From: Persicobacter psychrovividus
GTDB taxonomy: Bacteria > Bacteroidota > Bacteroidia > Cytophagales > Cyclobacteriaceae
Length of the DNA: 64,000 bases
Assembly (NCBI RefSeq): GCF_036492425.1
Contig: NZ_AP025294.1
Coordinates: forward strand, 124,001 to 188,000
Direction: 5' to 3'
The notes under the pieces are model-generated. The model made no database searches and was not told the DNA's origin. It was given only the letters and a program-made list of their open reading frames with translations. Numbering within the stretch: position 1 is the first letter of the stretch; each line of letters begins with the position of its first letter. The position numbers and the translations under genes are program-made. Below, one piece after another: positions 5,004 to 41,089 of the stretch.

Positions 5004-5010
5004 AGTTTGG

Positions 5011-6345: not shown

Positions 6346-6372
6346 AACATTTTTTAATTAATCAATATTGCG

Positions 6373-12355: not shown

Positions 12356-14125
12356 ATGAAGTTGAAGTATTTTTTATTCGTCTTAATATTTGGCCTGACG
12401 ATCGGATCAGTCCGTGCTCAACAGTTATTTTTCACCAAAGACAGGATTGATAAAATCGAAAAACTCGTCGGGCAGGATGAACTTTATCAACAGTTTCATC
12501 AACATTTGATCCATACCGCAGATCAATTGTGTAACCTCCCTGTACCCGAAAAAAAGATGACTGGCCGACGGTTGCTCAATACCTGTAGTACCTTCGAAAA
12601 ATACATTTTTCACCTCAGCTATGCCTATCAATTTACCCATCAACAAAAGTATGCCGATAAGATCGTTGAGCTGTTGGATGAGGCATTGAGCTATGAAAGC
12701 TGGAATCCCAAGCACTACCTTGATGTGGCAGAAATGGCATTGGGGGTGAGTATCGGAATCAATACCTTAGAAGAACATCCAAAGCACAAAACTTGGGTGG
12801 ATCAGCTATATCGCTTGGCCATTGTTCCCTCGATGGAGGAGCGTCCCTATGTCAAAGGTACCAACAACTGGAATGCGGTATGCCATGCGGGCATTACCTC
12901 ATCCGCTTTGGTATGCCAAGAACAATACCCTAAAGAGGCTTCTTTTTTGATTCATCGTGCCGAAAAGGAAATTAAAAATGGCCTTCAGAGCTATGACATC
13001 AGTGGCAACTTCCCCGAAGGGCCAAGCTACTGGATTTATGGTACCTCCTTTAATCTTATCCTTTACGATTTACTCAAGGTCAATCATTTAGATTATTCCA
13101 CTTTTGAACAATACGCAGGATTTTGGAAAAGTGGGGATTACTACCGCTGGTCGATTGGCAGTGATAACACCTATTATAATTATTTTGACTGCAAAGGAAC
13201 AACACGACTTTCTCCCGCCATGGCGATGCTCTCTCAAATCAACGGGAGACCCGACTTCCTGACCGCTGAAAGAGCCATGATGAAATCATTCATGGAGAAC
13301 TACGGTGAGCAACAGGTCAAATCATCCAAGGATCGGCTTGCACCCCTGTTTTTGCTATGGTTGGTGGGCAACGGCTCCTCGGCAGAAGTAGGGAATGACC
13401 AAACTTATTTTGTGGGTGGGGGAGAAAACCCCGTGGTCTTTTGGCATCATCAGCAAGATGGTAAAGCTGTATTTTTGGGGATCAAAGGAGGGAAGGGAAA
13501 CCTCAGTCATGGGCACCTCGATGCGGGAAGTTTTATTTATGAGAAAGACGGCATTCGTTGGTTTGAGGACCTCGGACGGGAGAATTATACCCACATCGAG
13601 AGCTTTGGAAAGTATGTATGGACTTATGACAGTAAAGCTCCCCGATGGGAATTTTTCCGCCATCACAACCTTGGTCATAATACCATTTCTGTAGATCAAA
13701 AGGCCTTCAATCCCGATGGTTTTGTTGCCCTCGATGTCAATCAAATCAGCAACGAAACGGTTGAAGTAAGTGCTGATCTTTCCCCACTTTATACGCAGGA
13801 ACAGGCAATCAAAAGGAACTGGTTTTGTGATGGTGAAAAGCTGAAAATGACCGATCAGTTTTCATCATCTTTAGGCAAGGAACTGAATTGGAGATTCTTC
13901 ACAAAAGCCAAAGTAGTCGTTGCAAAAAATGGTAAAAAAGCCACCCTTCAACGCAATGGAAAATCCCTGACCATAAAATTAAAAGGCGTAAAAGACGCTC
14001 GATTTAATACGCTGGTGATGAACCCCCACTTCACCGAAATGGATAGCCCGAACAAGGAAATCAGTATGTTGAGTATAGACTTAAATGCCAAAGAAGCAGG
14101 CACATTAACTTTTATCATTGAATAA
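12356..14125 (+). CDS. Heparinase II/III-family polysaccharide lyase
   Basis: A 589-residue exported lyase. ATG 12356 (MKLKYFLFVLIFGLTIGSVRAQ) gives a proper signal peptide; the earlier in-frame codon at 12317 adds 13 polar residues and is unlikely. Residues 30-320 form the N-terminal alpha-toroid with GTNNWNAVCHAGIT (N170, N171, W172), and residues 360-589 form the beta-sandwich domain with NLSHGHLDAGSF (H385, H387, D389). These match the heparinase II/III fold (PL12/15/17/21 and relatives), which cleaves uronic-acid linkages by beta-elimination. It is the first gene of a block with GH2, whose start lies 13 bases after this stop. The PL family and substrate (heparin-like, alginate-like or glucuronan-like) are not settled by sequence. 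Confidence 0.85.
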   Translation: MKLKYFLFVLIFGLTIGSVRAQQLFFTKDRIDKIEKLVGQDELYQQFHQHLIHTADQLCNLPVPEKKMTGRRLLNTCSTFEKYIFHLSYAYQFTHQQKYADKIVELLDEALSYESWNPKHYLDVAEMALGVSIGINTLEEHPKHKTWVDQLYRLAIVPSMEERPYVKGTNNWNAVCHAGITSSALVCQEQYPKEASFLIHRAEKEIKNGLQSYDISGNFPEGPSYWIYGTSFNLILYDLLKVNHLDYSTFEQYAGFWKSGDYYRWSIGSDNTYYNYFDCKGTTRLSPAMAMLSQINGRPDFLTAERAMMKSFMENYGEQQVKSSKDRLAPLFLLWLVGNGSSAEVGNDQTYFVGGGENPVVFWHHQQDGKAVFLGIKGGKGNLSHGHLDAGSFIYEKDGIRWFEDLGRENYTHIESFGKYVWTYDSKAPRWEFFRHHNLGHNTISVDQKAFNPDGFVALDVNQISNETVEVSADLSPLYTQEQAIKRNWFCDGEKLKMTDQFSSSLGKELNWRFFTKAKVVVAKNGKKATLQRNGKSLTIKLKGVKDARFNTLVMNPHFTEMDSPNKEISMLSIDLNAKEAGTLTFIIE

Positions 14126-14138
14126 TTTTTGGAGATTG

Positions 14139-16802
14139 ATGAGAACTTTATTTTTAAATATTTTATTGACCCTTGCCTTGGCTGTATCGGCCTTTGCACA
14201 ACCAGAAAAAGTCAATTTCAATGCCGATTGGCTATTCCATAAGGGCAGTCTGAAAGATGCTCCTTTGAAGCATGACTTTGACGACAATCAATGGGAAAAA
14301 GTAGACCTACCTCATACTTACAATGATCAGGACATCATTGATGATCCGATAGGATATTATCGAGGCGAAGCATGGTATCGCAAAAAATTTGAGGTACCAA
14401 CGGATTGGCGACACAAAAAAGTAAGTCTGAACTTTGAAGGTGTAGCCATTAAATGTGAGATTTATGTTAATGATCGCTATGTTGGCGAACATTTGGGCGG
14501 TTATACTGCCTTCTACAAAGACATCGAAGGGCTATTGAATTTTGGGGAAGAAAACCAATTGGCCATCAAAACGGATAATTCTGAAAACCTGCAATTTACT
14601 ACCCCACCTGTGGCTGGTGACTTCAGCATGTTCGGTGGCATTCACCGAAACGTCTTTTTGGTTACTAAAAACAAACTCTATTTTGATCATAACTTTTATG
14701 GCGCATCGGGGGTGTTTTTTCAGAACACAGGACTGAAAAACAACAAAGCGCAATTCAACATCAGCACCCACTACCGTCAGGAATTACCCTTTGATCGTCA
14801 GGTGATTTTTCGTCATCAGATATTGAACAAAAATCAGAAAGTCATCTGGAAAACTGCGGTTACCAAACGCACTCATTCAGGTGATATTTCCCATTGGGAA
14901 ACCGACAGCAAGGTGAATAATATTCAACCTTGGTCAATTGACAACCCTTATTTATACACCTTGAAAAGTCAGATTATCGATGCTAAAGACAATAAGGTAA
15001 TCGATGAGATTGAACAGAAAATCGGCTTTAGAACTGTAAGCATCAGTCAGCAAAAAGGGGTACTTTTGAATAACAAGCCGATCAAACTGCAAGGGGTGGC
15101 AAGGCATCAGCAATACCATCATCAGGGCAGCGCCTTAACCGATGATCAACACCAAAAAGATATGGTATTGGCGAAAGATTTGGGCTCGAATTTCGTCCGT
15201 ATTTCCCACTATCCACATTCGCCCGAGATTTACAAAGCCTGTGATTCACTCGGCATGGTGAGTTGGAGCGAGATACCTTGTGTGAACTGGGTGCCTTTCG
15301 GTCAGCCCTTTTTGGACAACAGCCGAACGATGATGCGCGAGATGATTTATCAAAACTATAACCATCCTTCGGTCATCATCTGGGGTTATCATAACGAGAT
15401 CTGGCAGGCACACGAAGAGGCGGTTTTGCACGCCAAAGCCATGGAACAAATTTCAAAGCAGACTGATCCGTCGCGTTTAACGGCCATGGCTTTTCAGGGC
15501 ACTTTCCTAAAAAATTATGTAGGAGAATTGGGCGAAGAAATATTCAACGTTTCTGATATCAATGGCTTTAATGTCTATCAGGGATGGTATCAAGATACTT
15601 ATAAAACCATCGATCATTATGTGGACAGCCTGAAAACCTACTCCCCGAAAAAGTGCATCATGCTCTCAGAATTTGGAGCGGGTGCTGATCCCCGTATTTG
15701 GAGCGCAAAACCAAGCATTCATGATTTCAGTAATCGCTATCAGGTGGATTTCCTCAAGCCCTATCTTGCCACCCTCCACGACAGCCCGTGGATGGTCGGA
15801 TATAGCATCTGGATTTTGAATGATTTTGAACGTGACAGTCGTAAGGATGCCGTGCCGAATGTTAATAACAAAGGCTTAATCTCAACGGATCGTCAACCCA
15901 AAGATGCCTATTATTTTGTACAGGCAAATTGGTCGAAAAAGCCCATGGTTTATATCGAAGGCGCACCAATGGACACCGTGGTGGCCGTTACCGAGGGTAA
16001 TACTTTCACAGTAAAATTACATGTTTACGGTAATGGCAACAAAGTAAAATTACGCCACAATAAACAATTCTTTTATGAACTTGAACTGAAGCAAAGGGAG
16101 GTTGAATTTGATATTGATCTACAAAAGGGATGGAATAAAATTGAAGCTATTGATGAGCGAAACAACTGCCGATACGAAAGGAAGATCTTCCTGAAAAGGG
16201 TCAAAAGCAATTCGCAGGGAATCGAGATACCGAAAGAGGGATTGGCTATTAATATCGGACAAACAGACCGATACTTTAATGGCAACGAACGATGGTTACC
16301 TGCATCGGTATTTAATGAAAATCCCAACTTTAAAGTATTAGGCGGAAATATTTACCACCAAGCCTACAAAGACAAACCTGCATTACGCCTACGCGAAGGT
16401 ATTTCTGAAAACGTCTTCAACAGTACCGACGACCCGATGTATCAAACGTTCCGCTGGGGAATTGAAGCGCTCAATTTAAAGCTCAAATCAGGTAAATATA
16501 AATTGACCTTTTATTGGGCATATCCATTCAAAGCCCAAAAAAATCGACCACTTTCGCAGGCCGAAATCGCATGGGGCGAGCAGGACGGATCAGTTGCTAC
16601 TACCGAGGATATTTTTAATCTTCGCATTAATGGTAGTGTCGATTTATCGAAACTGAATGTCAGAAAAGAAGCCGGTAATTTGAAGGCACTGGAAAAAGAA
16701 GTGATTTGTCAGACGGATAAAAATGGCCAAATTGGCATTCAGTTGGAAGCACTCAGCGGACAAGCCTTTTTGAATGGGATTAAGATTACGCCCGTGGAAT
16801 AA
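14139..16802 (+). CDS. GH2 glycoside hydrolase (beta-galactosidase/beta-glucuronidase type)
   Basis: An 887-residue exported enzyme. I place the start at ATG 14139 because GGAG at 14131-14134 is well spaced before it and MRTLFLNILLTLALAVSAFAQ is an ideal signal peptide; the alternative ATG at 14118 overlaps the lyase stop. It has the GH2 sugar-binding domain (DLPHTYND, YRKKFEVP, GGYTAFYKDI), the jelly-roll/Ig domain and the TIM barrel (ARHQQYHHQGSALTDDQHQKDM). The acid/base is E420 in HPSVIIWGYHNEIW and the nucleophile E511 in MLSEFGAG. About 250 C-terminal residues beyond the barrel include a malectin-like/carbohydrate-binding-like fold (about 690-887). It is co-transcribed with the lyase, which suggests removal of a beta-linked sugar from lyase products. 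Specificity is undetermined. Confidence 0.93.
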   Translation: MRTLFLNILLTLALAVSAFAQPEKVNFNADWLFHKGSLKDAPLKHDFDDNQWEKVDLPHTYNDQDIIDDPIGYYRGEAWYRKKFEVPTDWRHKKVSLNFEGVAIKCEIYVNDRYVGEHLGGYTAFYKDIEGLLNFGEENQLAIKTDNSENLQFTTPPVAGDFSMFGGIHRNVFLVTKNKLYFDHNFYGASGVFFQNTGLKNNKAQFNISTHYRQELPFDRQVIFRHQILNKNQKVIWKTAVTKRTHSGDISHWETDSKVNNIQPWSIDNPYLYTLKSQIIDAKDNKVIDEIEQKIGFRTVSISQQKGVLLNNKPIKLQGVARHQQYHHQGSALTDDQHQKDMVLAKDLGSNFVRISHYPHSPEIYKACDSLGMVSWSEIPCVNWVPFGQPFLDNSRTMMREMIYQNYNHPSVIIWGYHNEIWQAHEEAVLHAKAMEQISKQTDPSRLTAMAFQGTFLKNYVGELGEEIFNVSDINGFNVYQGWYQDTYKTIDHYVDSLKTYSPKKCIMLSEFGAGADPRIWSAKPSIHDFSNRYQVDFLKPYLATLHDSPWMVGYSIWILNDFERDSRKDAVPNVNNKGLISTDRQPKDAYYFVQANWSKKPMVYIEGAPMDTVVAVTEGNTFTVKLHVYGNGNKVKLRHNKQFFYELELKQREVEFDIDLQKGWNKIEAIDERNNCRYERKIFLKRVKSNSQGIEIPKEGLAINIGQTDRYFNGNERWLPASVFNENPNFKVLGGNIYHQAYKDKPALRLREGISENVFNSTDDPMYQTFRWGIEALNLKLKSGKYKLTFYWAYPFKAQKNRPLSQAEIAWGEQDGSVATTEDIFNLRINGSVDLSKLNVRKEAGNLKALEKEVICQTDKNGQIGIQLEALSGQAFLNGIKITPVE

Positions 16803-24657: not shown

Positions 24658-24695
24658 GAATCAAAGTCGATCCGTTCAGTTTTTGTGATAATATG

Positions 24696-24721
24696 TGCCC
24701 TTCAATTTGAAGGGCATTTTT
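24696..24721 (+). terminator. Rho-independent terminator after GH42 gene
   Basis: TGCCCTTCAA (24696-24705), one loop base, TTGAAGGGCA (24707-24716), then a T run. The next gene starts 35 bases later, so it may be partly independent of GH42. Confidence 0.8.
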
Positions 24722-24755: not shown

Positions 24756-27569
24756 ATGATAAAAACAATATCCCTATTTTTTTCTGTGCTGCTTATGGGG
24801 GCTTGTACTCCCAAAACAGCAAGAATATATGACAACTTTGTCAAGCATAGCCAACAGCCTGAGAAAGCTATTTTGCCTGATTTTTCTTATGCGGGATATG
24901 CATTTGGAGAAAAAGCAATTACGGCACCATCTACTGATATTTTCGATGTTACCGACTTCGGTGCCATCGCCAATGATGACAAATCGGATGAGGCGGCGAT
25001 CAAAAAAGCCATTGCCAAGGCAGAGCAAAATGGTGGGGGCGTGGTGTATTTTCCTGCCGGAAAATATTTGGTCAATACCGATTTGCAAGAGCAAAATGAA
25101 TACATCCTGATTCAGCACTCCAATGTGGTATTGAAAGGTGAAGGGCCTGAAAAGACGACCATTGAAATCCAAAAACGTGCGGGTGCGAAGGCAATCACTT
25201 CGGGAATTTATAAGTTCCGATTCGAGAAAGTAAGCGATCATGATCCTGCCTTTTCACATGCTAACCTAAAGCTGAAAACAGATTTTATCACCAAAATCAG
25301 TGCTGATATTACGGGTGGATCATTCGATGTACAGGTGGCAAACACCAACCACTTGAAAGTGGGACAGTGGGTAACTTTACAGCTTCCTGCAACCGATGAC
25401 CGTCAGGTGAAATTGTTCTACACTCAGCCGTATGATATTCCAACCAAAGCGGACGAACAAAAAACGAATACCCATTGGTATCAAGCCAAAATGGAGTTGT
25501 CCGAGCGTCATTTGATCAAAGCGATTGATGGCAATACGGTTACTTTCGAGTCGCCAGTACATATTCCTGCGGTTGCCAAACACGGTTGGGAGCTTCGTAC
25601 TTTTCCTCATCTTGAAAATGTGGGTATCGAAGGTATTCACATCAAAGGGAATTGGGAGGGCTACTATCCTGGTAACCACCAATTGTTGATCAAGAAAAAA
25701 GGTTTCAGTCCTTTGATGATGTCTGCTTGTGTGAACAGTTATATCAAAAACTGTTACATCAGTAATTATAATATGGGCATGCGTTTGTACAATTTGGCCG
25801 CATGTTCAGTAGTAGATTTGAAGATGTTTGGTAACGGTCATAACCGAGGACGTCATAATATTTTCCTACAGAACAGTAACAATGTCTTTGTGGGTAAAGT
25901 ACAAGATTTCCAAGAGAATGAAGATGCCTTCACCGTTACGCATAGTGCGATCGGTAATGTATTTTGGTATTGCGAGAATGAAGCCAACACGGCTTTGGAT
26001 ATTCACGCCGCCTATCCATATGCCAACTTGTATGACAACGTAAAATCTTCTTTCAAAAGAAAAGCAGGCGCGGGAACGAACGGTCCAATGGGCGGTTATA
26101 ACCCTCAGCATTTGGGTAAATTGGTGCTTTGGAACCATCATTATACAGGAAGCGATGCTTCGGTTTACCCTTTCTGGGACAAAAATGATTTCTACAATGC
26201 CAGGCATCAGTTCTATGTGATGCCGATCGTAGCAGGGATGCACGGTAACCCAATCAGCTTCAAGGCGGAGCAATGTGAAGCACTTGAATCAACGGGTACA
26301 GTGGTTACTCCTGAGTCTTTATATGCAGCACAATTGGAGCGCCGACTTGGAAAAGTACCAGCATGGTTGGAAGAATTGAACCAAGAAAAATGGTTGGATG
26401 AAAGCCCTGTGAAGGCGGATACCAAGACGATTATTACAGCAGATTTCGATCATGGAAGTTTGGATTATATGTATGAAAAATCTCCTAATCATTTCGTGGG
26501 GCGTACCAAGCATTGGTTGAAAGAAGATAGCATCGGTAATCAATATTACTGGTTCTATTATCAGATGAAAAATGTCAAAGGCAAAACCATCACCACCGTT
26601 TTGGAGGAGATGAAGGGAATCTATCGTGGCATGCCGCACTTGATCTTTACCGACTATACGCAACCCGTTTTTAGTTATGACAATGAGCATTGGGACCGTA
26701 TCACAGACGTAAAATATAACGGCGAAACACACGAATTCAAATACACGCATACCTTTACGGAGGACAATGTTTGGATTGCCTATGCACATCCATACACTTA
26801 CAGCCGTAAGGAGGCATTGATTTTCTCTTTGTTCAACAATCCGTTGGTAAAGGTTGATTATATCGCCAAAACTAAACAAAAACGTCATTTGCAAGTGGTT
26901 ACCATCACCGATCCTAATGTGGATGATAAAGGTAAAAAGGTGATCATGGTCGATGCGATGCAGCATGCGGGTGAGGATTGTGGCGGATATTTGGCAGAAG
27001 GATTGATCAAATACTTGATCTCGAATGACGCTCGCGCGGCACAAATCCGTAAAAAGTTCATCTTCAAAGTGATCCCAATGATGAACCCTGACGGGGTATT
27101 CTTCGGAACGACTCGCTATAATATGAGCATGCGTGATATGAATGCTTCTTGGGGTGAAGATCACTCTCAGGAAGTGATGGACAATGAGTTGAAAGAGGTT
27201 CAGGCCTTGCAAAAATACAGTCAAGACATCTATGCGCATGGCCATATTGATATGTTGCTTGATGTGCATAGCCATTCTCAACAGGTACAGAAACATACGA
27301 TTCTCTGCCCGAATGAAAATACATTGAAAGAATTTGCCGTATGTTTGAGTAAATACTGGAAAATCAAACATGTTGGCGTCAAGAGTACTGGGCGTATGCG
27401 TGCGTATTACTATAAATATGGGACACCATCAGGAACAATTGAACTTTCACAATCTAAGTTGGCAGGTGAAAATCCTTATTTAACGGTTGAGGATTATCAG
27501 AAATATGGGGAAGGCGTTGCTAGAGCGGTTTGGGATTATTATGCTGAGGTAGAAAAAATGATGAAGTAA
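24756..27569 (+). CDS. Fusion: pectate-lyase-like beta-helix + M14 metallocarboxypeptidase-like domain, lipoprotein
   Basis: A 937-residue lipoprotein (lipobox LLMGAC, Cys17). Residues about 60-480 form a right-handed beta-helix of the pectate lyase 3/DUF4955 sort: VTDFGAIANDDKSDEAAIKKAI, GGGVVYFPAGKY, VVLKGEGPEKTTI and repeated helix turns through NVFVGKVQDFQENEDAFTVT. Residues about 550-690 resemble the beta domain that precedes M14 peptidases (ADFDHGSLDYM ... EDNVWIAYAHPYTYSRKEA). Residues 700-937 are M14-like: QHAGED (zinc H737, E740), MMNPDGVFFG, RDMNASW, DVHSHS (zinc H838) and GTIELSQSK (catalytic E896). All zinc and catalytic positions look intact. An uronoyl- or peptide-amide/ester cleavage joined to glycan binding or cleavage is a reasonable guess; no activity is known to me for this combination. 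The gene closes the forward block before a strong terminator. Confidence 0.8.
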   Translation: MIKTISLFFSVLLMGACTPKTARIYDNFVKHSQQPEKAILPDFSYAGYAFGEKAITAPSTDIFDVTDFGAIANDDKSDEAAIKKAIAKAEQNGGGVVYFPAGKYLVNTDLQEQNEYILIQHSNVVLKGEGPEKTTIEIQKRAGAKAITSGIYKFRFEKVSDHDPAFSHANLKLKTDFITKISADITGGSFDVQVANTNHLKVGQWVTLQLPATDDRQVKLFYTQPYDIPTKADEQKTNTHWYQAKMELSERHLIKAIDGNTVTFESPVHIPAVAKHGWELRTFPHLENVGIEGIHIKGNWEGYYPGNHQLLIKKKGFSPLMMSACVNSYIKNCYISNYNMGMRLYNLAACSVVDLKMFGNGHNRGRHNIFLQNSNNVFVGKVQDFQENEDAFTVTHSAIGNVFWYCENEANTALDIHAAYPYANLYDNVKSSFKRKAGAGTNGPMGGYNPQHLGKLVLWNHHYTGSDASVYPFWDKNDFYNARHQFYVMPIVAGMHGNPISFKAEQCEALESTGTVVTPESLYAAQLERRLGKVPAWLEELNQEKWLDESPVKADTKTIITADFDHGSLDYMYEKSPNHFVGRTKHWLKEDSIGNQYYWFYYQMKNVKGKTITTVLEEMKGIYRGMPHLIFTDYTQPVFSYDNEHWDRITDVKYNGETHEFKYTHTFTEDNVWIAYAHPYTYSRKEALIFSLFNNPLVKVDYIAKTKQKRHLQVVTITDPNVDDKGKKVIMVDAMQHAGEDCGGYLAEGLIKYLISNDARAAQIRKKFIFKVIPMMNPDGVFFGTTRYNMSMRDMNASWGEDHSQEVMDNELKEVQALQKYSQDIYAHGHIDMLLDVHSHSQQVQKHTILCPNENTLKEFAVCLSKYWKIKHVGVKSTGRMRAYYYKYGTPSGTIELSQSKLAGENPYLTVEDYQKYGEGVARAVWDYYAEVEKMMK

Positions 27570-27589
27570 ATCGGGAATGATCAATAGCA

Positions 27590-27622
27590 AAAAAGGCAGC
27601 CTTTTCGGGCTGCCTTTTTTTA
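27590..27622 (+). terminator. Strong Rho-independent terminator ending the forward enzyme block
   Basis: GGCAGCC (27595-27601) pairs with GGCTGCC (27608-27614), extended by flanking A and T runs (AAAAA/TTTTTTT). It follows the M14-fusion stop by about 20 bases. Confidence 0.9.
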
Positions 27623-28074: not shown

Positions 28075-30453
28075 TTAAACCCCAGCTTGTTTCACCTTAA
28101 GGTTCAATTCTCCTTTATGGTCAAAGCTGATCACGGTATTTCCTTGGGGATTAACATTGGTATGGAAACGGATCGCTGTGCCATTGGCATCCGTCAATTT
28201 ATCGATCGCTTCGGCAGTGGAATTCGATAAGACGATTTGCGCTTCAGCAATGGAGATGAAAGTAAAGCTCAATTCACCTTTGGCTTCTTGCAAATCCAGT
28301 AACTCGATTGTTGAGCTCAACAACTTAGGCGCAGCCGTTTTTTGGGTCGAACGGAAGCCAACCACTTCATTCTTGTCTTTATTCAACCACGCATCAGGAA
28401 TTTGATTGGAAGCCGTAACCTTTTTACCATTAACGGTAAAGTAGTCCAAGGTACCCTCGCCTTCAAATTTGAAATCCACCAATTTACCACGGTATTGGTA
28501 GTCATTGATTTCTTTCACCAATTTACCTGCCTGCAATGCCAAACCGTGAGGTAAACGCTTCACTGCAATATTGGTCATCGCTCCGAACCAAGCGCCCATA
28601 CTGAAAATCTGTGGACGGATTTGGTGGTTTGATCCCGCAGGGTAGAAGCCACTCATCTCCACCATCGCACCAGCCATCGGCATGTTTTTCCAAGGGATAT
28701 AACATTCTTTGGCCGCATAATCAATGGCTTTTCTCAAATCATCCTGATTGATGTCGTCCATTTCCAAGGTCGCCAAAATAGAGAAATATCCTGCCAAGAA
28801 ATACTCATCTTTCTTCACCAAAAGGTCATCGAAAAGTGTTTTTTGATAACGGTCAATATCAAATTCTTTCGGGAAGAACGGTGGACAGGTCAATGCCCAG
28901 ATATAATCCGTTTCGTCCAAACCATAGCCATCAGCCATCAAGACTGTGCCGTCCGTAGCGACTGCTTTCCCATAGTAAGGCATTTTTCCTTCAGGGAACA
29001 AAGGCTTCATTTTTTCTACCAAGGCTTCTGCTTTCTCGGCATAATTATTCTTGACACCTTGTACCTCACACACCTCATGCAACATACGATAGACGCTGTA
29101 ATTGAACAGGTTGATATAAATATCATAGCTGCGCTCAATCTTTTTGCCTTTGTATGGAGGAGCATCCCAACCCAAAACCGGTTTTCCTACCGCATTGTCC
29201 CAACCGAAATCACGGCTGTTATACAATGGCGTTTCGCAGAAATATTGACGGTAGAATAAGCCTTCTTTTTGATCATAACAATAATCCTCCAACCAATCGC
29301 AAGCCTCCATCATCAGTTTCAAATTGTCCTTACTGATGTATTTGGTATCGTTGGTTTGTGTCCAGTACGTAAAAGCAGACCATACCGCATAGAACAAGCC
29401 GTCCTCTTGCCATTTGGTGATTTTACCATTGGCCATTTGCCCAAAGAATCGGCCCGTGCGTCCATTCTCCTCAATATTGGTCGGGTTCGCCATCTGGAAA
29501 TCCGTCCATTTGTCCAATGGATTTGCCCATCCACTGTACGCCATCCATGAACAAGCCAAACCGCCATCACGTACCCAGATCAAATAATAGATCTTCTGTA
29601 AAGCCGCCTGCATCGCTCCAGATTTGTCTTGAGCCGAAAGGAAAATTCGCTTATTGAAATCAATCAAATTTTGGAGCGAATCATGATCATTCAAGACCAA
29701 TTTACCGAAAGCGGTTTCTTTAATAACTTCCTTATCATTGTCCGCCATTAGCTTTTGCTGACCCTTGGCGGCCAATTGTTGCAATTTGCGTTCAATATGT
29801 TCGCCTTTGAGCGCGCCTCCGATGAAAATCGGCTGGTTAGGTACCATTTCGGCACGGCAATAAGTGCTTCGCCCTTGGTCGATTTGGAGCTGATGCTGAA
29901 AATCTCCCCCCTTCAATACGGCAGCAAATTCAAAGTTCAACCCACGGTCAGGGTGTGCGCTGACGAAGCTTCTTTCAGCTCGCTTGATTGGCGTATCCTG
30001 TTTATCGGTTTTGAAATCAATCATGCCCGCCTTCGATGTCCAGATATAAAATACTGGGCTATCTTCCAAGGTGGCAATATGCACATCCTGATTTTTATAA
30101 TGCACTACCGTATGCCATGGGTCGTAGTCGGTCGAAACATAATCGGCAGCCGATAGGGCAGGGAAGCTGATTTTATCAAAAATCTTGGTATGATCATCCC
30201 GATTAGAGAAGTTTCGCATTTTATAGCTGTTGTCTTCGCCCGCCTTCGGGTTGATCCACAACTCGATCGTCGATTGGCTGATATTATATTCCGCACGAAC
30301 CCCCATTGGGCTGTGCATCAAAATCAACTGATCAACTTTCTTTTCTTGATGTACAGCCGCAACGTCCTTTGTTTGTTGCTGAGGGCTCATCGCGCAACCA
30401 CCCGCAGAGAGGAGCAGCAACGAAAGCCCAATATTTAAATAGGTCTTTCTCAT
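28075..30453 (-). CDS. Unclassified lipoprotein with (alpha/alpha)6 glycosidase-like domain
   Basis: A 792-residue lipoprotein (lipobox LSAGGC, Cys20). The N-terminal ~260 residues look like a beta-sandwich (RAEYNISQSTIELWINPKAG, SPVFYIWTSKAGMIDF). Residues about 265-680 are helical with the toroid pattern: YYLIWVRDGGLACSWMAYSGW (I292-D296 gives the W-V-R-D motif seen in clan GH-L/GH-G enzymes), KWQEDGLFYAVWSAFTYW, FYPAGSNHQIRPQIFSMGAWFGAM. A C-terminal beta part follows. No GH family wording fits it well. It starts 4 bases inside the GH3 gene (ATGA overlap), so it is translated together with GH3 and likely acts on the same oligosaccharide in the periplasm. I call it a candidate exo-glycosidase of unknown specificity. 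Confidence 0.7.
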   Translation of the reverse strand: MRKTYLNIGLSLLLLSAGGCAMSPQQQTKDVAAVHQEKKVDQLILMHSPMGVRAEYNISQSTIELWINPKAGEDNSYKMRNFSNRDDHTKIFDKISFPALSAADYVSTDYDPWHTVVHYKNQDVHIATLEDSPVFYIWTSKAGMIDFKTDKQDTPIKRAERSFVSAHPDRGLNFEFAAVLKGGDFQHQLQIDQGRSTYCRAEMVPNQPIFIGGALKGEHIERKLQQLAAKGQQKLMADNDKEVIKETAFGKLVLNDHDSLQNLIDFNKRIFLSAQDKSGAMQAALQKIYYLIWVRDGGLACSWMAYSGWANPLDKWTDFQMANPTNIEENGRTGRFFGQMANGKITKWQEDGLFYAVWSAFTYWTQTNDTKYISKDNLKLMMEACDWLEDYCYDQKEGLFYRQYFCETPLYNSRDFGWDNAVGKPVLGWDAPPYKGKKIERSYDIYINLFNYSVYRMLHEVCEVQGVKNNYAEKAEALVEKMKPLFPEGKMPYYGKAVATDGTVLMADGYGLDETDYIWALTCPPFFPKEFDIDRYQKTLFDDLLVKKDEYFLAGYFSILATLEMDDINQDDLRKAIDYAAKECYIPWKNMPMAGAMVEMSGFYPAGSNHQIRPQIFSMGAWFGAMTNIAVKRLPHGLALQAGKLVKEINDYQYRGKLVDFKFEGEGTLDYFTVNGKKVTASNQIPDAWLNKDKNEVVGFRSTQKTAAPKLLSSTIELLDLQEAKGELSFTFISIAEAQIVLSNSTAEAIDKLTDANGTAIRFHTNVNPQGNTVISFDHKGELNLKVKQAGV

Positions 30454-32887: not shown

Positions 32888-34258
32888 CTATTCAGCACTC
32901 ACCAATGACTTCTCTTCCGATTTGTCATTGTCTTTGATCGATTGCAATTCTTGTTTGATTTGCTCTAATTTCTGATCACTCAAATTATAGAACATAAAAC
33001 AGCCAATTGAGGCAAAAGCAATGAGGGCAGGATAGATCGTCATGGCATTTTTTATGCCTATGAGTGCATCGGCTCCCTGTTCCACATTCGGCTGATAACC
33101 ATACCAGCTCAACAATGCCAAAGTACCAGAGGCACCAATAGCAACGCCCGTTTTTTGAGCGAAAGTTGCGGCAGAGTAAGCGAGTCCTGTTGCGCGACGG
33201 CCATTTTTCCACTCAGAATAATCCGATGAATCAGCCAGCATCGACCATAACAATGGCATGGTAGGTCCAGATGCCAAAGAGAAAACAATCTGTGCGGCGA
33301 AGATCAAAACGATTTGATCGGGGCCAAGGAAATAATTAAAGATCAAAGAAGCGGAAATCACTCCCAAGCAAATCATAAACAGCTTGGCCTTGCCGATCTT
33401 TTTCGCCATCCAATTGGTTGGCACCACACCCGCCAATACGGCGATAGTCCCGACCACCATAAAGAGCGGTGCAAGGTCCTTACGCCCAACGAAATATTGA
33501 AAATAATACATCACCGCCGAGCTTCGGATACCGATATAAATCAACAGGGTGATCGAACTAAAGAACAAGACCAACCATGGTCGGTTCGAACTCAAATCCT
33601 TGAAATCCTCCTTCACACTGTTCGCGCTTTGCTTCACAGGCTGAACGCGTTCTTTGGTTGTCAGGAAGGCAAAAAGCAATCCCGCCAAACACAAAACTCC
33701 CAATCCAGCGATCGCCAACGGATAACCTTTGGCCTGATCTCCTTCACCCAATTTTTCTACCAACGGGATCAAACCTCCCTGCACGAGCAAACTTGCACCA
33801 TAGGCAAAAACAAATTTAAAAGACGACAAAGCAGTGCGTTGCTCAGGATCAGGCGACATCACGCCGATCAAAGCATTGAAAGGCACCGTTACCATCGTAT
33901 AGAAGATCAAGAAGGAGAAGTAAGTCGCATAGGCATAAATCAGTTTTCCTTTCGGGCTCAAATCGGGCACGGTAAACATCATCACCGCCGTGAAAACCAA
34001 CGGCAGGGCTCCCAACAACAGGAAGGGTCTGAATTTTCCCCATCGGGTGTTGGTTCGATCCGATACCGTACCCATAATTGGGTCGTTCATCGCGTCAAAT
34101 ACCCTAACAATCAGGAATAAGGTGGCTGTCGCTGAGGCGGGTAACAAATATACATCAGTATAAAAAGCAGGAAGGAAAAACATAAGGGTTTGCCACAAAC
34201 CACTACTCGCCAACTCTCCGAGGCTATACCCGAATTTTTCTTTGAATGAAAGCTTCAT
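32888..34258 (-). CDS. GPH-family (MelB-like) sugar:cation symporter
   Basis: A 456-residue inner-membrane transporter with about 12 hydrophobic segments. GPH hallmarks are FKEKFGYSLGELASSGLW at the N-terminus, RVFDAMNDPIMGTVSDRTNTRWGKFRPFLL (cation-site aspartates and the R/D loop) and NGRRATGLAYSAATFAQKTGVAIG. Members carry glycosides, pentosides or hexuronides with Na+ or H+. It lies 26 bases after the GH28 gene on the same strand, so it probably imports the mono- or disaccharide set free by GH28 and its partners. The imported sugar cannot be read from sequence; uronates or apiose-like pentoses would suit the neighbourhood. Confidence 0.9.
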   Translation of the reverse strand: MKLSFKEKFGYSLGELASSGLWQTLMFFLPAFYTDVYLLPASATATLFLIVRVFDAMNDPIMGTVSDRTNTRWGKFRPFLLLGALPLVFTAVMMFTVPDLSPKGKLIYAYATYFSFLIFYTMVTVPFNALIGVMSPDPEQRTALSSFKFVFAYGASLLVQGGLIPLVEKLGEGDQAKGYPLAIAGLGVLCLAGLLFAFLTTKERVQPVKQSANSVKEDFKDLSSNRPWLVLFFSSITLLIYIGIRSSAVMYYFQYFVGRKDLAPLFMVVGTIAVLAGVVPTNWMAKKIGKAKLFMICLGVISASLIFNYFLGPDQIVLIFAAQIVFSLASGPTMPLLWSMLADSSDYSEWKNGRRATGLAYSAATFAQKTGVAIGASGTLALLSWYGYQPNVEQGADALIGIKNAMTIYPALIAFASIGCFMFYNLSDQKLEQIKQELQSIKDNDKSEEKSLVSAE

Positions 34259-34284: not shown

Positions 34285-35739
34285 TTATATACCCGCTTTC
34301 AGCTTACCTGAATTCTTGATCACAAATTGCTTCTTTTTAATGTCTTGATAATCAACCAAAACATTCTCTCCTCGGTAATTAATTACATCGTCAAAGTGAA
34401 TCGCAGGGCGAGGATCACCCTCAGCAGGAGCGATTTGTACCTGATCAAAAATGATGTTCTTTACATGTCGGAAATAAATACCTGACGCAGGTAAATCGGT
34501 ACCATACATTTTAGGGTATGGATAATTTTTTGAATTCTCGGGCACCTCAATCGTCAAATCCTTTACTGTTCCCGCCGTGTTGTATTCAAATTTACAGTTG
34601 TGCATGCTAACCCCTTCTACATAGTTTTCAGGGTAGCCCGTGATGTTTACAGGAACGCTACCAATATTGGTGGCGGTGATGTTGGAGTAAGAGATATTTT
34701 TGATCGTTCCAGCCGTAATCGGGTGATCATTGTATTCGGTATGCGTTACTTTATGACGATCCGACAAACGAATAAAAATCGGTGTCATCATGCCATCCAT
34801 CACGATATTGTTGAAGCTGATATTTTCGATATCGCAACCATCAACAGACATCAAAGACAAGCCCGTAATACCATTGCGGTAGCCCAAACCGTGAACGATC
34901 TTAGTCGCGCGGGTAGGACGTAAAACACAGTTTGAAACCGTAATGCGCTTGAAAGTTCCGAATGAGCCTGTTCCCAATTTGATGTAAGAAGCAGTGGAAG
35001 AAACGATACAGTTGGTGATCACCACATCTTCTGTTCCTTTTGGTGCTTCGGTTTTCAGGCAGATACCATCATCAGCAGAGTCCACGGTACAATCAGAGAT
35101 GTGCACGCGATGACAATCCACAATGTCCATCCCATCATTGTTGGTGTTGGCATGGTTGAACAGCTCAATGTTATGGATGCGAACGTTATCACAAAGGTAA
35201 GTTCTCAGCATCCAGAAAGCGGAATTGGTCAGTGTCAAATCGCGAACGGTGATGTTCTGACAATTTCTGAAATAAATACCATAAGGGCGCTTGCTTCCAT
35301 TTTTTTCATGCATCGGAAAGGCTTCATGGTGATCGCCAGAAGGGTAGATGGTACCGTCGCCAGTCAGAGTAACATTCTCCAAATTGTCACCAAAAATAAA
35401 CGCACGACGTGACATGGTGTAACCACCTGATTGGCTCAAATCCGCATTCGAAGGGATTTCAGGGAACAATTTTAGATCAGGAACTGCTTGCCACACACTA
35501 CCTGATTGCAGTTCTATGGTTACATTGCTTTTCAGGTGAATCATGCCCGTCATGAATGTTCCTGTCGGGAAAACAAGGGTGGTGTTTTTTCGGCTCGCTT
35601 CATCGATCGCCTTTTGAACGGCTTCGGTGTTGTCGGTTTTACCATCGCCTACGGCACCAAAGTCAGTAACATTCAATGCCTGCGCCATCACATTCAATGG
35701 CAGGAAAATTCCCATCAACAGATAAAAAAGATATTTCAT
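34285..35739 (-). CDS. GH28 polygalacturonase-family enzyme
   Basis: A 484-residue exported beta-helix enzyme (signal MKYLFYLLMGIFLPLNVMAQ). It opens with NVTDFGAVGDGKTDNTEAVQKAI and has the GH28 catalytic aspartates: D202 in HANTNNDGMDIVDC and D223/D224 in DSADDGICLKTE. TKIVHGLGYRNG provides the usual His/Gly region. GH28 hydrolyses galacturonan or rhamnogalacturonan backbones or takes uronates off chain ends. It heads a block with the GPH transporter, suggesting uptake of its product. A terminator-like hairpin at 36126-36167 and 450 empty bases separate it from the HTCS, so its promoter lies in that gap. Confidence 0.92.
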   Translation of the reverse strand: MKYLFYLLMGIFLPLNVMAQALNVTDFGAVGDGKTDNTEAVQKAIDEASRKNTTLVFPTGTFMTGMIHLKSNVTIELQSGSVWQAVPDLKLFPEIPSNADLSQSGGYTMSRRAFIFGDNLENVTLTGDGTIYPSGDHHEAFPMHEKNGSKRPYGIYFRNCQNITVRDLTLTNSAFWMLRTYLCDNVRIHNIELFNHANTNNDGMDIVDCHRVHISDCTVDSADDGICLKTEAPKGTEDVVITNCIVSSTASYIKLGTGSFGTFKRITVSNCVLRPTRATKIVHGLGYRNGITGLSLMSVDGCDIENISFNNIVMDGMMTPIFIRLSDRHKVTHTEYNDHPITAGTIKNISYSNITATNIGSVPVNITGYPENYVEGVSMHNCKFEYNTAGTVKDLTIEVPENSKNYPYPKMYGTDLPASGIYFRHVKNIIFDQVQIAPAEGDPRPAIHFDDVINYRGENVLVDYQDIKKKQFVIKNSGKLKAGI

Positions 35740-36190: not shown

Positions 36191-39100
36191 TCAGACTTTT
36201 ACTTCCTGTTGGTTAGCATAGGCTTTAGGACCAATCCCAAATTCTTTTTTAAAGCAGCGCGTGAAATATTTAGGGTCATTGAAACCGACCGCATAAGCTG
36301 CCTGAGAAACAGATATTTTCTCTGTTACCAATAGCTTAGCGCCATGTTTTAGTCTACAACTTCGAATGAATTCATTCATAGACATATCAAGTAAAGCTTT
36401 CATTTTATTGTAAAGCCATGTGCGACTCACCCCAAGGTTGGAGCAGAAAAATCCAATATCCAGGTATGGGTTTTCAATTTCCTCTTCAATGATACTTTTA
36501 ATCTGTTCCAAAAACTCCTGATCCTGAGGGCTAATTGTATCACCAACCTCCTGTATTCCAGTCCATATATCGGATTTAAACTGTTCGATTAAATCAAGCC
36601 GCTGGCGTAAAATATTTTCCACCTTCCAATGCAGTTCTTCAAACTTGAATGGTTTGGTGATGTAATCTGAAGCCCCAGCTTTCAGCCCTTCAAGACGATC
36701 GTGCTCCGCATCTTTGGCCGTAATTAATATTATGGGGATGTGGCTGGTGCTGATATTCTGCTTCAGTTTTTCACACATCATTATTCCATTCATCACTGGC
36801 ATCATAATATCTGAAAGAATAATATGCGGCTGTTCCTGTAAAGCAATTTCCAGTGCCTGTTGGCCATTTTCAGCACTTAATACTTGGTAATGATGCTTGA
36901 GCCTACTGACAATAAAAGTTCGTAGGTCCTCATTATCTTCCACAACCAAAATCTTTGTTTTAAGTAATTTTTCAAGTTTTTCGGTTTTTTCAATCGACTT
37001 GGTTACTACCTGATCGGTTGCGGCCAGTGCTTCTTGCTTTTCCTGTTCCTCCTCTTGAATATTGATCAATGGTATACTAATATTGAAAGTTGTTCCATGA
37101 TGGTCGGGATTATCTACCTTGGTAACACTGTCCACACTGATCTGGCCATTTGCCAAATCAACAAGCTGCTTTACCAACGATAAGCCTATTCCTGTACCAA
37201 CAGCCATTTCCTCATGCGTATCCATTCGGTAAAACCTATCAAAAATATACGGGAGCTGTTCGGCAGAAATACCTTCCCCATTATCGGAGATTGTTATTTT
37301 AAGTTGCTGGTCCTCAACCCCCATGTCGAATGCCACCGTCCCGCCTTGTGGCGTATATTTTATGGCATTATTGAGCAGATTATAGGTGATCTTGTTAATG
37401 AGGTCATAGTCATAGTCAGCCATCACCATCCCAATATTTTCAGAACTATGCAAGGTAATGGATTTCTGAATTGCCAAATGCTCAAAAGAGGTGCGGATGC
37501 TTTTATAATGTGTAAACAGGGCGTGCCGCTGAATCTTCAGTCGAATAGCCCCACCATCAATTCTGGAGAGCTCCATGATTTGTTCCACCAAATCCAGTAA
37601 AAGCTGCGCATTTCGGGAAACGATATTAAGCAACTCTTTTTCATCTCCATTTTTTTTATTAATCTGTTTAAGTTCACTGATCGGTCCCTGAATAAGGGTC
37701 AATGGTGTTCTGAATTCATGGGATACATTGGTATAAAAGTCACTTTTTATTTGATCAACCTGCATTAATTGTTCCGTCTGCAAACGGATTTTCTCATAGG
37801 CATTTGCATTATCCATGGCGATGGAAATGTATGAAGCAAGAGAACTCAAAATGGCTTGATGTGTTTCATCATAGGCATTTTTACGGTAGCTAATGGCCAC
37901 CAAAACCCCTTTTACCTTTGTGCTGTTGGTTTCATATAATGGTATGTAAATGCCCGCCTGAGGTCCAGTATTCGTATATTTTGCGTTGGGTGATTTTAGT
38001 AACTGATGTGCACTTTTTGGCAAATCATTACTCAGAATAATCTTACCCGTTTTGATCACATAAGCAGATAATCGGTCCTGTTTATCAAGCTGTAACTGAT
38101 CACGGGAAATTTGATCGCTGTTAGAACAAACCCCCCAGAGGTTGAGATGATTTTCGTAGGTTTGCCCAATCATCAATTCATCGACAATCATCAATTGCTT
38201 GACCGAATCAAATATTTGATTGAAAACCGAGGACAACTCCACGTTAGAAGTGATTTTCTGCCCCATCTGGCCCAGTGCCTCAATATTTTTTTGGTGCTTC
38301 TTTAACAGACTTTGCTGTTGCTGCAATTCCGTATTTTGATCAAGAATCATTGCCTTTTGGCTTTGCAGGTTTTGATTTACGATAATCAGTTCCCTTGTTT
38401 TTTCCTCAACCGTCTGGATCAATTCTTTTTTACGTTTTTTCAAGTCATTAATATACCAAAGCAGCATTGTCAGGAATACAATACCCATAGCCATAATTAT
38501 CAATGACTTAAACCAAGCGGTCTCCCACCATGGAGGCATAATGGAAATTTCTAATTTCTTGATATTGGATGACCATCTCCCGTCAGGATTTGTAGCTTGG
38601 ATTTCAAGTTCATAAACTCCTGGTGAAACCATGGAATAATTGATAGAAGTTTCATTGAAATTGGTGAAATTCCACTGCGCATCGTACCCTTTTAGGCGGT
38701 AACGATATTTAATTTTTTTGGGCACCCGAAAGTCCAGCGTCGAAAATGAAATATCGAAATTATTAAAGGAGTGGGGGAGTTGCAATTGCTTGATCTCATT
38801 GATGTCATAATCCTGTAATGCATACTCATTCTGCCCATCGGAATTGGCACTTTTAGATGGGGTAATCTTTAATTTTGACAGGTATACATTGGGCTGAGAA
38901 TTATCAATCTGAATATTAGCGGGGTCAAATTTGGTAAACCCATTTGGCCCACCGAAATAGATCACACCCTTTTCGTCTTTGAAGAATGCACATTCATTGT
39001 ATTCATTGGAGAGCAAACCGTCCTCTTCTGTAAAACTTGTGAATGTTGCCGCTTCCGGATTTAAACGACTGATGCCATTATTTGTACTCATCCAAATATT

Positions 39101-41089
39101 ACCTCTGTCATCTTCAAGGATACCATGAATGATATTTGATGGCAAGCCGTTTTTGGTAAAAAAATGGTCGATTTTTTCCTGCTCAGGATAGTAAGCATTA
39201 AGGCCATAACGGGTGCCTATCCAAATAGTGCCGTCTTTTGCCTCGGTGATCGTACGTACTTCATTATGGCTCAGTCCATTGCTTTCTTTTTTCAAGCGAT
39301 TCAGTTTACCCGTAGCAGGGTCAAGAATAAATACTCCCTGGCTTGTTGTACCAATCCATATTTTTCCAGTTTCATCCTGCATCAAGGAAAGCACAGCGCC
39401 AATTTTTTCATGCTCACCAATGATCTTTTGGGAAATATTCTCGAAAATATCACTGTTAGGTAGCTGATAATGTAGTCCACCACTCATGGGGCCAAAATAG
39501 ACCGTACCATCATCTGCCACCAAAATTGCCCGCAGCGACCAGCCCGGGAAAAGATGAGGATCTGAAGGGTCGTGTTTGGCATAATGTATAAAACGATGGG
39601 TGGCTAAATTGTATTTTGAAATCTTCCCTTCAAAATAGCCAATCCATATATATTTTCCGTCTTTGGAAGGAGTCAAAGAGCCCACCACATTTGAGGAAAT
39701 CGTCGAAGGACTATTGTTGTTTTGCTTAGGGAATTTTCGGATTAGCTGATCTTTTTCATTGAATTCAAAAAGGGAGGTTTTAGTCCCTATAAAAGTACTG
39801 CCCTGATGATTAAGGATAGAGTACACCTCCTCATCAGACTTCCGCTTGGCGTTGAAACTTGCCCCATTAAAAGAGGAAAAAGGTTTAGACTGGGTATTGT
39901 GCTTGATAACCCCGCCTTTGCCTGTACCTACCCACAAGACCCCCGTTTTATCGACAAATAAATCATATATGATGTTATTTGAATAGCCATTGGTTTTGAT
40001 GTCTTTTTGAGAAAATTCCCTGAACTCGCTATTTGAATAATTGTATTTTATCAAACCATTATTCGTAGAGGCGCCACCTGCCCAAATGTCACCATTTTTG
40101 TCTTCGGCGAGGCAGGAAATAGAGGGATTTTTTTGGTCATTTAAATAAATATCAATGATTTGCCCTGTTTGACTCAAACGGAACAAACCTTGTGTCATGG
40201 CCAACCAGATTTCACCCGTTTTGGCTACTTTGATATCGTAAACATTTTGTGCTCTGATGTTTTCTGGAAGGTCAATACGATTGAGGATACTCATGCTACT
40301 GACTAATTTTCCATCGCTGTTAAACTGACACCTCAACAGTCCGTTCGAGCGGGTTCCAAACCAAAAGGTATTGAACTCGTCTTTCTCGATCACGCGGACA
40401 TAGCGATTTTTCATCCCTTCATTCTGGTATTGATGAGTCCTCAAATTTTTTGTGTTCAATGCCGTAACTCCGTTATTGGTGCCTACCCACAACAGGTTGG
40501 TGGATGAATCAAAATAAAGCGTGGTAACATAGCTGGAGTTCAGGCCATGTTCCTGCTCATTACCCTCAAAAAAATGCTTTGTTTCAAAAGTTTCTGGATT
40601 AATTCTATTCAAACCATTGACCGTTGCCACCCAAATATAACCGTCGGAATCTTCAGCGATACTATTTTTGAAACCAGAAATATCCAAATTAGGACTCAAA
40701 TCATTACTTATACTTGAGGGGTCGTTTTCGTTATGGATGAGCGTATGAAAATTCTCCGTAATCGGGTCGTACACACTTATTCCCCCACTTTCAAACCTTA
40801 CCCAAACACGGTTCTTGGAATCCACGAAGGTGGATGTCAGCCATGAATCATAAATAGAATGTGGATCTTTTGGGTCAGGGCGAAAAACCTTCATTTTGTA
40901 TCCGTCATAACGAATGAGTCCATCCTGAGTACCAAACCACATGAATCCTGTGTTGTCCTGGATGATACTATTGATCACAGAGTGGGAGAGCCCGTCTTTA
41001 CGGCTTAGGGTGGTAAACTGATTGCTGTTGGCCAACACTAACAGTGTATGAAAGAGCGCTAAAAGAATCAATAGGTATCGCTTCGTCAT
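36191..41089 (-). CDS. Hybrid two-component system regulator (HTCS) with GAF-like domain
   Basis: A 1632-residue inner-membrane sensor-regulator. After a signal segment come two seven-bladed propellers of two-component-regulator repeats (FTTLSRKDGLSHSVI, many W(I/V)GT..GL blades) and a Y_Y_Y domain (about 790-850). A membrane span follows (about 855-880), then a coiled coil and a GAF-like domain (about 935-1085, ASYISIAMDNANAYEKI). Next are HisKA with phospho-acceptor H1124 in NVSHEFRTPL, HATPase (NLLNNAIKYTP, DNGEGIS, GTGIGLSLVKQLV), a receiver with D1427 in LSDIMMPVMNG, and an AraC-type HTH (about 1530-1632). HTCSs bind oligosaccharides in the periplasm and switch on their own polysaccharide locus. 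Position amid the enzyme blocks makes these its targets. The GAF domain is an addition to the usual HTCS plan. Confidence 0.95.
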   Translation of the reverse strand: MTKRYLLILLALFHTLLVLANSNQFTTLSRKDGLSHSVINSIIQDNTGFMWFGTQDGLIRYDGYKMKVFRPDPKDPHSIYDSWLTSTFVDSKNRVWVRFESGGISVYDPITENFHTLIHNENDPSSISNDLSPNLDISGFKNSIAEDSDGYIWVATVNGLNRINPETFETKHFFEGNEQEHGLNSSYVTTLYFDSSTNLLWVGTNNGVTALNTKNLRTHQYQNEGMKNRYVRVIEKDEFNTFWFGTRSNGLLRCQFNSDGKLVSSMSILNRIDLPENIRAQNVYDIKVAKTGEIWLAMTQGLFRLSQTGQIIDIYLNDQKNPSISCLAEDKNGDIWAGGASTNNGLIKYNYSNSEFREFSQKDIKTNGYSNNIIYDLFVDKTGVLWVGTGKGGVIKHNTQSKPFSSFNGASFNAKRKSDEEVYSILNHQGSTFIGTKTSLFEFNEKDQLIRKFPKQNNNSPSTISSNVVGSLTPSKDGKYIWIGYFEGKISKYNLATHRFIHYAKHDPSDPHLFPGWSLRAILVADDGTVYFGPMSGGLHYQLPNSDIFENISQKIIGEHEKIGAVLSLMQDETGKIWIGTTSQGVFILDPATGKLNRLKKESNGLSHNEVRTITEAKDGTIWIGTRYGLNAYYPEQEKIDHFFTKNGLPSNIIHGILEDDRGNIWMSTNNGISRLNPEAATFTSFTEEDGLLSNEYNECAFFKDEKGVIYFGGPNGFTKFDPANIQIDNSQPNVYLSKLKITPSKSANSDGQNEYALQDYDINEIKQLQLPHSFNNFDISFSTLDFRVPKKIKYRYRLKGYDAQWNFTNFNETSINYSMVSPGVYELEIQATNPDGRWSSNIKKLEISIMPPWWETAWFKSLIIMAMGIVFLTMLLWYINDLKKRKKELIQTVEEKTRELIIVNQNLQSQKAMILDQNTELQQQQSLLKKHQKNIEALGQMGQKITSNVELSSVFNQIFDSVKQLMIVDELMIGQTYENHLNLWGVCSNSDQISRDQLQLDKQDRLSAYVIKTGKIILSNDLPKSAHQLLKSPNAKYTNTGPQAGIYIPLYETNSTKVKGVLVAISYRKNAYDETHQAILSSLASYISIAMDNANAYEKIRLQTEQLMQVDQIKSDFYTNVSHEFRTPLTLIQGPISELKQINKKNGDEKELLNIVSRNAQLLLDLVEQIMELSRIDGGAIRLKIQRHALFTHYKSIRTSFEHLAIQKSITLHSSENIGMVMADYDYDLINKITYNLLNNAIKYTPQGGTVAFDMGVEDQQLKITISDNGEGISAEQLPYIFDRFYRMDTHEEMAVGTGIGLSLVKQLVDLANGQISVDSVTKVDNPDHHGTTFNISIPLINIQEEEQEKQEALAATDQVVTKSIEKTEKLEKLLKTKILVVEDNEDLRTFIVSRLKHHYQVLSAENGQQALEIALQEQPHIILSDIMMPVMNGIMMCEKLKQNISTSHIPIILITAKDAEHDRLEGLKAGASDYITKPFKFEELHWKVENILRQRLDLIEQFKSDIWTGIQEVGDTISPQDQEFLEQIKSIIEEEIENPYLDIGFFCSNLGVSRTWLYNKMKALLDMSMNEFIRSCRLKHGAKLLVTEKISVSQAAYAVGFNDPKYFTRCFKKEFGIGPKAYANQQEVKV

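Follow-up and report, generated by a model that had tools for sequence, protein, structure and literature searches.

What does a protein do in a glycan locus when one of its halves belongs to a polysaccharide lyase family and the other to the M14 zinc carboxypeptidases? The question is raised by a gene at 24756-27569 (+ strand) of a 64,000-nucleotide stretch of Persicobacter psychrovividus DNA (contig NZ_AP025294.1, assembly GCF_036492425.1), the whole of which is referred to here as the window. An earlier note on this DNA had described the product as a beta-helix fused to an intact M14 domain and had proposed that it removes a substituent from a uronate and binds or cuts the chain. The observation has been confirmed, and the interpretation is partly supported. 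Judged from its sequence, the protein appears to be a new combination of known kinds of domain, in which both active sites are altered. Two points were absent from the earlier note: the helix resembles PL29 and has lost residues that its relatives conserve, and the position equivalent to Arg145 of CPA in the M14 half is read as Ala797.

One frame with two halves

The gene is a single uninterrupted frame of 937 codons from ATG to stop, and its 937-residue product comprises a lipoprotein-like signal, a PL29-like helix and an M14D unit. By eye, the translated N-terminus, MIKTISLFFSVLLMGAC, reads as a lipoprotein signal peptide with a candidate lipobox at Cys17 (24756-24806, + strand). The right-handed beta-helix fold of the N-terminal half, with DUF4955 of the BT3328 type, is predicted for residues 41-541 (24876-26378, +) from matches to PF12708, PF16315 and NF058554 and to a hidden Markov model (HMM) of 13 relatives. 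It is followed by a CCP N-terminal domain (Pepdidase_M14_N, PF18027, 46 bits) at residues 560-676 (26433-26783, +) and by the M14 zinc carboxypeptidase domain (PF00246, 71 bits) at residues 697-894 (26844-27437, +). The Pfam order is Pect-lyase_RHGA_epim (63-188), DUF4955 (391-541), Pepdidase_M14_N (560-676) and Peptidase_M14 (697-894), all four matches exceeding their curated cut-offs, and a match to AstE_AspA_cat at 730-904 (28.3 bits, cut-off 25) overlaps the last of them. Frame and domains together bear out the description of one protein joining a lyase-family beta-helix to an M14 half.

The same 937-amino-acid gene is present in a record of the uncultured Persicobacter isolate 477 (L003), with 97% identity in protein and 95% in DNA. 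The junction is also the same, and the genes that flank it match those of the window in lengths and order. G806, a genome of the same species, carries the same 943-codon frame, and isolate 477 and G806 are possibly one assembly. Between the window and L003 synonymous changes predominate. The ratio of nonsynonymous to synonymous substitution rates (dN/dS) is 0.078 for the helix, 0.039 for the CCP N-domain and 0.040 for the M14 domain, and four neighbouring genes range from 0.03 to 0.17. Both halves of the fusion are under purifying selection; at these values both are maintained and neither is relic-like. A misassembly or frameshift joining two genes, which the earlier note had named as a refutation, is in keeping with the finding that matches outside this species carry one half each. 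The isolate 477 record, however, has the identical fusion, junction and flanking gene order at 95% DNA identity with synonymous changes dominant, so that the artefact has a negligible chance and was rejected. The fusion of helix and M14 halves is real.

As far as sampled, the fusion is narrowly distributed. Among 390 genomes of the order, 395 of the phylum and 39 relatives, the whole protein as query had matches in 15, 20 and 5 respectively, the own genome being counted in each, and the listed matches other than the own genome carry one half each (in the order and phylum searches, at most two candidates were scored per genome at E 1e-20). With the M14 half as query (at most four candidates per genome, E 1e-15), 18 of 390 genomes of the family matched, the 943-codon frame appearing only in the own genome and G806. 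These order, phylum, family and relatives sets overlap. Among plasmid records 16 of 72,556 matched, none covering 80% of the fusion protein, and the contig scan that found L003 looked for six peptides of one protein by exact match, which reaches near relatives only. Within the sets searched, the own genome, G806 and L003 are the sole ones with both halves in one frame; the search for the same fusion elsewhere that the earlier note had advised thus yielded none outside this species. G770, another genome of the same genus (91% complete), has no match to the fusion protein. PF16315 is present in 14 of the 395 phylum genomes, own included. Literature searches on lyase-M14 fusions and on M14 in polysaccharide loci showed no such fusion in the titles and abstract openings of the papers listed, and one on DUF4955 matched no papers.

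The neighbourhoods of the separate halves were also scanned. Four stand-alone PL29-like genes, each with 20 kb of surrounding DNA, have no M14D gene near them, and six stand-alone M14 genes, with 8.6-20 kb of surroundings, have no PL29-like gene. Other matches to the PL29 HMM in those neighbourhoods are a second DUF4955 gene in L044 (292 bits) and weak ones to the GH28 gene of the window (29 bits), that of L003 (27 bits) and one L045 gene (31 bits). As a separate observation, the L044 stretch at 3329-8836 (-), from Flammeovirga kamogawensis plasmid p1 (L092), encodes an 1835-amino-acid protein that carries CBM96, a secretion tail and a second match of DUF4955 type. It lies two genes away from the PL29-like gene that stands alone in that locus.

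A PL29-like helix with lost residues

The longest family match of the helix is to NCBIfam NF058554, the BT3328 hyaluronic acid endo-lyases of PL29, over residues 15-541 (298 bits, E 1e-88), far under that family's curated cut-off of 1100. The DUF4955 match reaches 120 bits against a cut-off of 25. By these matches the helix half appears to be of the PL29 kind, that of the BT3328-type chondroitin/hyaluronan lyases with DUF4955. Identity as a pectate lyase or a GH28 enzyme was rejected because the longest family match is BT3328/PL29 with DUF4955; matches of pectinase, rhamnogalacturonidase and epimerase type are confined to parts of the first 205 residues. BT3328 of Bacteroides thetaiotaomicron is described as a surface chondroitin/hyaluronan endo-lyase (PMC6994673). 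The window protein resembles it in the layout of helix and DUF4955 over residues 15-541 and in a locus of uronate-glycan type. Unlike BT3328, it is without the N-terminal spacer of about 300 amino acids (the profile is matched from position 301), has lost four conserved His/Asp residues and has a C-terminal M14 unit added. The window protein has 27% identity to a Bacteroides finegoldii relative.

The residue losses were read against 11 relatives from the order and phylum, which represent ten other genomes and have no M14 part, and against two B. finegoldii plasmid DUF4955 proteins. The genes of the latter two lie 3' of SusD and 'PL29 family lyase N-terminal domain' genes and 5' of an annotated chondroitinase gene. 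Among these 13 relatives seven columns of the H/D/E/K/R/Y residues are invariant, each of them His or Asp, and the window protein has changed four of the seven, also with the two B. finegoldii proteins added. In a leave-one-out comparison with the window protein excluded, each of the 13 relatives has changed only 0 or 1 of 7-8 columns. The changes are His to Asn at codon 307 (25674-25676, +), Asp to Lys at codon 314 (25695-25697, +), His to Arg at codon 366 (25851-25853, +) and His to Asp at codon 390 (25923-25925, +). All four are seen in the alignment and reproduced by the HMM of the 13 relatives, which scores the window protein at 435 bits; that at 366 is unsure owing to a local insertion with H367 adjoining. 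Across 14 other proteins, including the divergent IMG/VR protein L063, His is found at 307, 366, 390 and 417 in 14 of 14, and His308 and Asp314 in 13 of 14 each. L063 comes from one of three identical 7.3-kb IMG/VR contig stretches (L063, L064 and L065) with a PL29-like gene, at 24% identity.

Because four of the seven invariant His/Asp columns are lost, a working lyase is doubtful, and judged by conservation the helix half probably no longer cuts. Several observations weigh against this conclusion. The helix retains H308, H417, D427 and N460, and R366 adjoins inserted residues, so that H367 could replace it. When all residue types are counted, 5 of 23 invariant columns are changed in the window protein and 6 of 29 in L009, so that the former does not stand out. 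Two members of a closer nine-protein set, L005 and L037, have each changed 2 of 9 H/D/E/K/R/Y columns, and with L063 added four such columns stay invariant, of which the window protein has changed two. A remodelled active site is possible.

An enzyme with such a site could be bifunctional: its helix would be an active lyase or hydrolase, and its M14 half would strip the same uronan of an amide- or ester-linked substituent. The purifying selection on both halves, the four retained residues and the uronate-glycan type of the locus are consistent with it. The losses at N307, K314 and D390, however, are independent of the doubtful insertion at 366, every other member tested has changed at most one such column, and the locus has a separate PL35-like lyase; we consider this explanation unlikely. 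It is close to the deprotection-plus-depolymerisation enzyme of the earlier note, a proposal that finds no support in a helix lacking four of seven His/Asp columns and an M14 half lacking its grip residue.

An M14 half with its zinc ligands and without its carboxylate grip

The closest PDB relatives of the M14 half are the bacterial M14D carboxypeptidases 4b6z (E 4e-23), 3l2n, 3k2k and 4a37. The first two zinc ligands are found in H737-A-G-E740 (26964-26975, +), the third is H838 (27267-27269, +), and the general base, Glu270 of CPA, is E896 (27441-27443, +). These assignments rest on the M14 alignment and on residues from the literature, with the translation for the first, and the four residues are conserved in 15 of 15 rows of that alignment. 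Alignment to the PDB entries and relatives further places R787 (27114-27116, +) at Arg127 of CPA (Arg226 of BcCCP) and N796-A797 (27141-27146, +) at Asn144-Arg145, the Arg being absent. In PMC3940198, the zinc ligands of BcCCP are given as His171, Glu174 and His268 and its base as Glu344; Arg226 corresponds to CPA Arg127, and Asn235 and Arg236 (CPA Asn144 and Arg145) bind the substrate carboxylate. Set against these, the window protein has H737, E740, H838, E896, R787, N796 and A797, the last being the sole departure. The half thus agrees with M14D/CCP-like proteins in the CCP N-domain followed by the M14 domain, the HxxE...H ligands, the Glu270 base and the Arg127 equivalent, and departs from the classical Asn144-Arg145 carboxylate grip, of which N796 is kept and Arg is replaced by Ala. 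The earlier note's statement that all expected residues are present holds for H737, E740, H838 and E896 and fails at the carboxylate-gripping Arg. BcCCP is one of the bacterial cytosolic carboxypeptidases; unlike it, the window protein is probably an exported lipoprotein, with Ala for Arg236 and a beta-helix fused.

In a tree of 37 M14D rows, the two fusion proteins and the stand-alone proteins L038, L068 and L069 form one clade (support 100/99). The three stand-alone proteins come from the bacterial family of the window organism, have 43-47% identity to the M14 half and, by eye, lipoprotein-like N-termini. They keep the zinc ligands, the base and the Arg127 equivalent and have Asn at the Arg145 position. 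Since these relatives are also without Arg145, its loss is probably older than the fusion. Unlike the window protein, they have no helix, and scans of neighbouring genes showed neither glycosidase nor lyase, though a CBM9 gene is present in L042. The loss is not unique to the clade: of the 37 rows with a readable site, 26 have the Arg145 equivalent and 11 are without it, namely L075, the five members of the fusion clade and five Bacteroidota proteins that are exported and read Glu-Ser. A further row, L041, is gapped at the site (a MAFFT alignment reads Arg), and L007 and L070 are one gene; many of the pairwise alignments end before residue 896, at which row L082 aligns Asn.

Changes at the carboxylate site also mark a second M14D group. 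In 12 Bacteroidota M14D proteins of other families (L021, L022, L023, L025, L026, L027, L028, L029, L031, L032, L033 and L036; frames of 613-656 amino acids), Glu replaces CPA Asn144, and five of the 12 also have Ser for Arg145. The C-termini of L021 and L027, the two sequences inspected over their full length, resemble, by eye, a type IX secretion tail.

Structure predictions gave little further detail. The whole-protein model, made from three rows, had a predicted local distance difference test score (pLDDT) of 30.7, too poor for use, and the M14-half model from four rows was of poor quality (pLDDT 46.5, predicted template modelling score 0.50). In a Foldseek search with this poor M14-half model, 4b6z came first (template modelling score, TM, 0.37; root-mean-square deviation 16 A), and the best matches, 4b6z, 3k2k, 3l2n and 4a37, lay at TM 0.27-0.37 and deviations of 14-16. 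The model suggests a CCP-like order of elements.

Because the zinc ligands, the general base and the oxyanion Arg are kept, the M14 half probably hydrolyses an amide or ester bond, and because the Arg that grips a free carboxylate is absent, it probably releases something other than a classical C-terminal amino acid. The half may be an enzyme of other specificity or a binding protein, and a leaving group that is a free-carboxylate amino acid appears less likely. This assessment is weakened by two considerations: the loss of Arg145 might be compensated elsewhere in the pocket, and bacterial CCPs had little or no activity in assays, according to PMC3940198.

A related explanation is that both halves are catalytically silent, leaving a glycan-binding protein made from two retired enzymes. 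The residue loss in the helix and that of Arg145 point in this direction, and CPXM1 offers a precedent. This vertebrate M14 protein is listed as a pseudopeptidase in a table of PMC11266112, and like the window M14 half it keeps the zinc ligands and the Arg127 and Glu270 equivalents and is without Arg145, which is His in CPXM1. It differs from the window protein in belonging to another M14 group with another partner domain (discoidin), and in the same table the other four M14 pseudopeptidases (AEBP1, CPXM2, CPD-III and Ecm14) have lost a ligand or the base. Neither the window protein nor any of the three stand-alone relatives has lost the zinc ligands, the base or the Arg127 equivalent, and the M14 part has a dN/dS of 0.04. 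Silence of both halves is quite improbable.

The glycan locus and a possible role

From its gene content, the locus is read as serving an acidic, uronate-type glycan. The PL35-like glycosaminoglycan lyase of the locus (12317-14125, +) matches PDB 8khv (294 bits), 8khw (249) and 9o3q (171) and retains the stretches YGTSFN and SHxHxD; the proposed catalytic residues of GAGase II, according to PMC12269599, are Tyr246 and His401. The GH2 gene (14118-16802, +) is beta-glucuronidase-like (NF050095, 422 bits, cut-off 950; 6ed1, 587 bits). These two are followed upstream of the fusion gene and on its strand by GH39, apiosidase-like, melibiase-like and GH42 genes. Downstream, on the other strand, are genes for a 792-amino-acid protein, a GH3, a glycoside-pentoside-hexuronide (GPH) transporter (32888-34258, -; TIGR00792, 395 bits, cut-off 231), a GH28 that family scans read as rhamnogalacturonidase/polygalacturonase-like (34285-35739, -), a hybrid two-component regulator (36191-41089), two GH28-like proteins and a GH116. 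The PL35-like, GH2, GPH transporter and GH28 genes agree with the glycan setting that the earlier note had assigned to the protein.

Other features of the region were recorded in passing. The 792-amino-acid protein (28075-30453, -), for which L003 has a gene of equal length, is matched by neither Pfam nor NCBIfam families at the thresholds applied; in the PDB it weakly resembles BT3781 (2p0v, E 9e-4) and, more weakly still, alpha-1,6-mannosidases. The tandem GH28-like genes (41351-42691 and 42645-44018, -) have frames that overlap by 47 bases, and both are weakly like known GH28 families. Terminator-like hairpins lie between the GH42 gene and the fusion gene (24695-24717, +) and 3' of the fusion gene (27589-27620, +), the latter with 14 pairs, a T run and the longest stem of four; with four such sites observed in the region against 4.7 expected from shuffles, there is no excess over chance, and both are weak evidence.

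Stand-alone PL29-like genes, in the two loci examined, accompany sulfatase, GH88 and hybrid regulator genes (L043) or sulfatase and GH88 genes (L044). Those of the M14 clade differ in their surroundings: the one in L083 is directly 3' of an M20 peptidase gene on the same strand, the one in L042 has an M19 dipeptidase gene three genes away on the other strand and a CBM9 gene near, and the one in L084 is beside an FtsX/MacB gene. Two further L042 genes (4297-7038 and 7129-8946, +; 913 and 605 amino acids), which adjoin the CBM9_2 gene and the stand-alone M14 relative, have no Pfam match at E 0.001.

The M20 and M19 neighbours, together with the nature of M14 as a peptidase family, fit a glycan-anchored peptidase, whose helix would tether the protein to a proteoglycan or glycopeptide and whose M14 half would trim the peptide for nitrogen, leaving the glycan to other products. 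However, the whole clade of five is without Arg145, which argues against ordinary C-terminal residues, and no peptidase was found among the four neighbours scanned in L084 or, by Pfam, among 20 other genes of the window. This explanation is unlikely.

The reading that we tentatively favour, while giving it slightly less than an even chance, is that of an envelope lipoprotein in which a retired or altered PL29-type helix holds an acidic glycan for an M14D zinc hydrolase of probably non-classical specificity. The protein would sit in the cell envelope as a lipoprotein, and the former lyase groove of its helix would hold a uronate-containing glycan without cutting it. The held glycan, or its attachments, would thereby be presented to the zinc site, which would hydrolyse an amide or ester bond near it, and chain cutting would be left to the PL35-like, GH2, GH28 and other enzymes of the locus. 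The domain architecture, the lost and retained residues, the presence in a second genome and the gene content of the locus are observed; the end of lyase activity, the glycan binding, the hydrolysis and its substrate are inferred.

The M14 half may still free a uronate of an amide- or ester-linked substituent. According to PMC4663550, there is a marine exopolysaccharide in which galacturonate carries alanine and serine in amide linkage. An amino-acid-amidated uronate would still be a candidate substrate if another residue takes over the carboxylate grip.

Overall, the protein may illustrate, at the level of sequence, how a polysaccharide lyase has apparently become a scaffold that no longer cuts. 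It also exemplifies an exported, lipoprotein-like M14D clade without Arg145, the stand-alone members of which can be compared with the fused ones. To our knowledge, hardly any enzyme is known that takes amino-acid or amine groups off the uronic acids of bacterial polysaccharides to which they are bound as amides, and a glycan-locus protein that pairs a lyase scaffold with an M14 zinc site would be a concrete, expressible candidate for uronate-amide removal.

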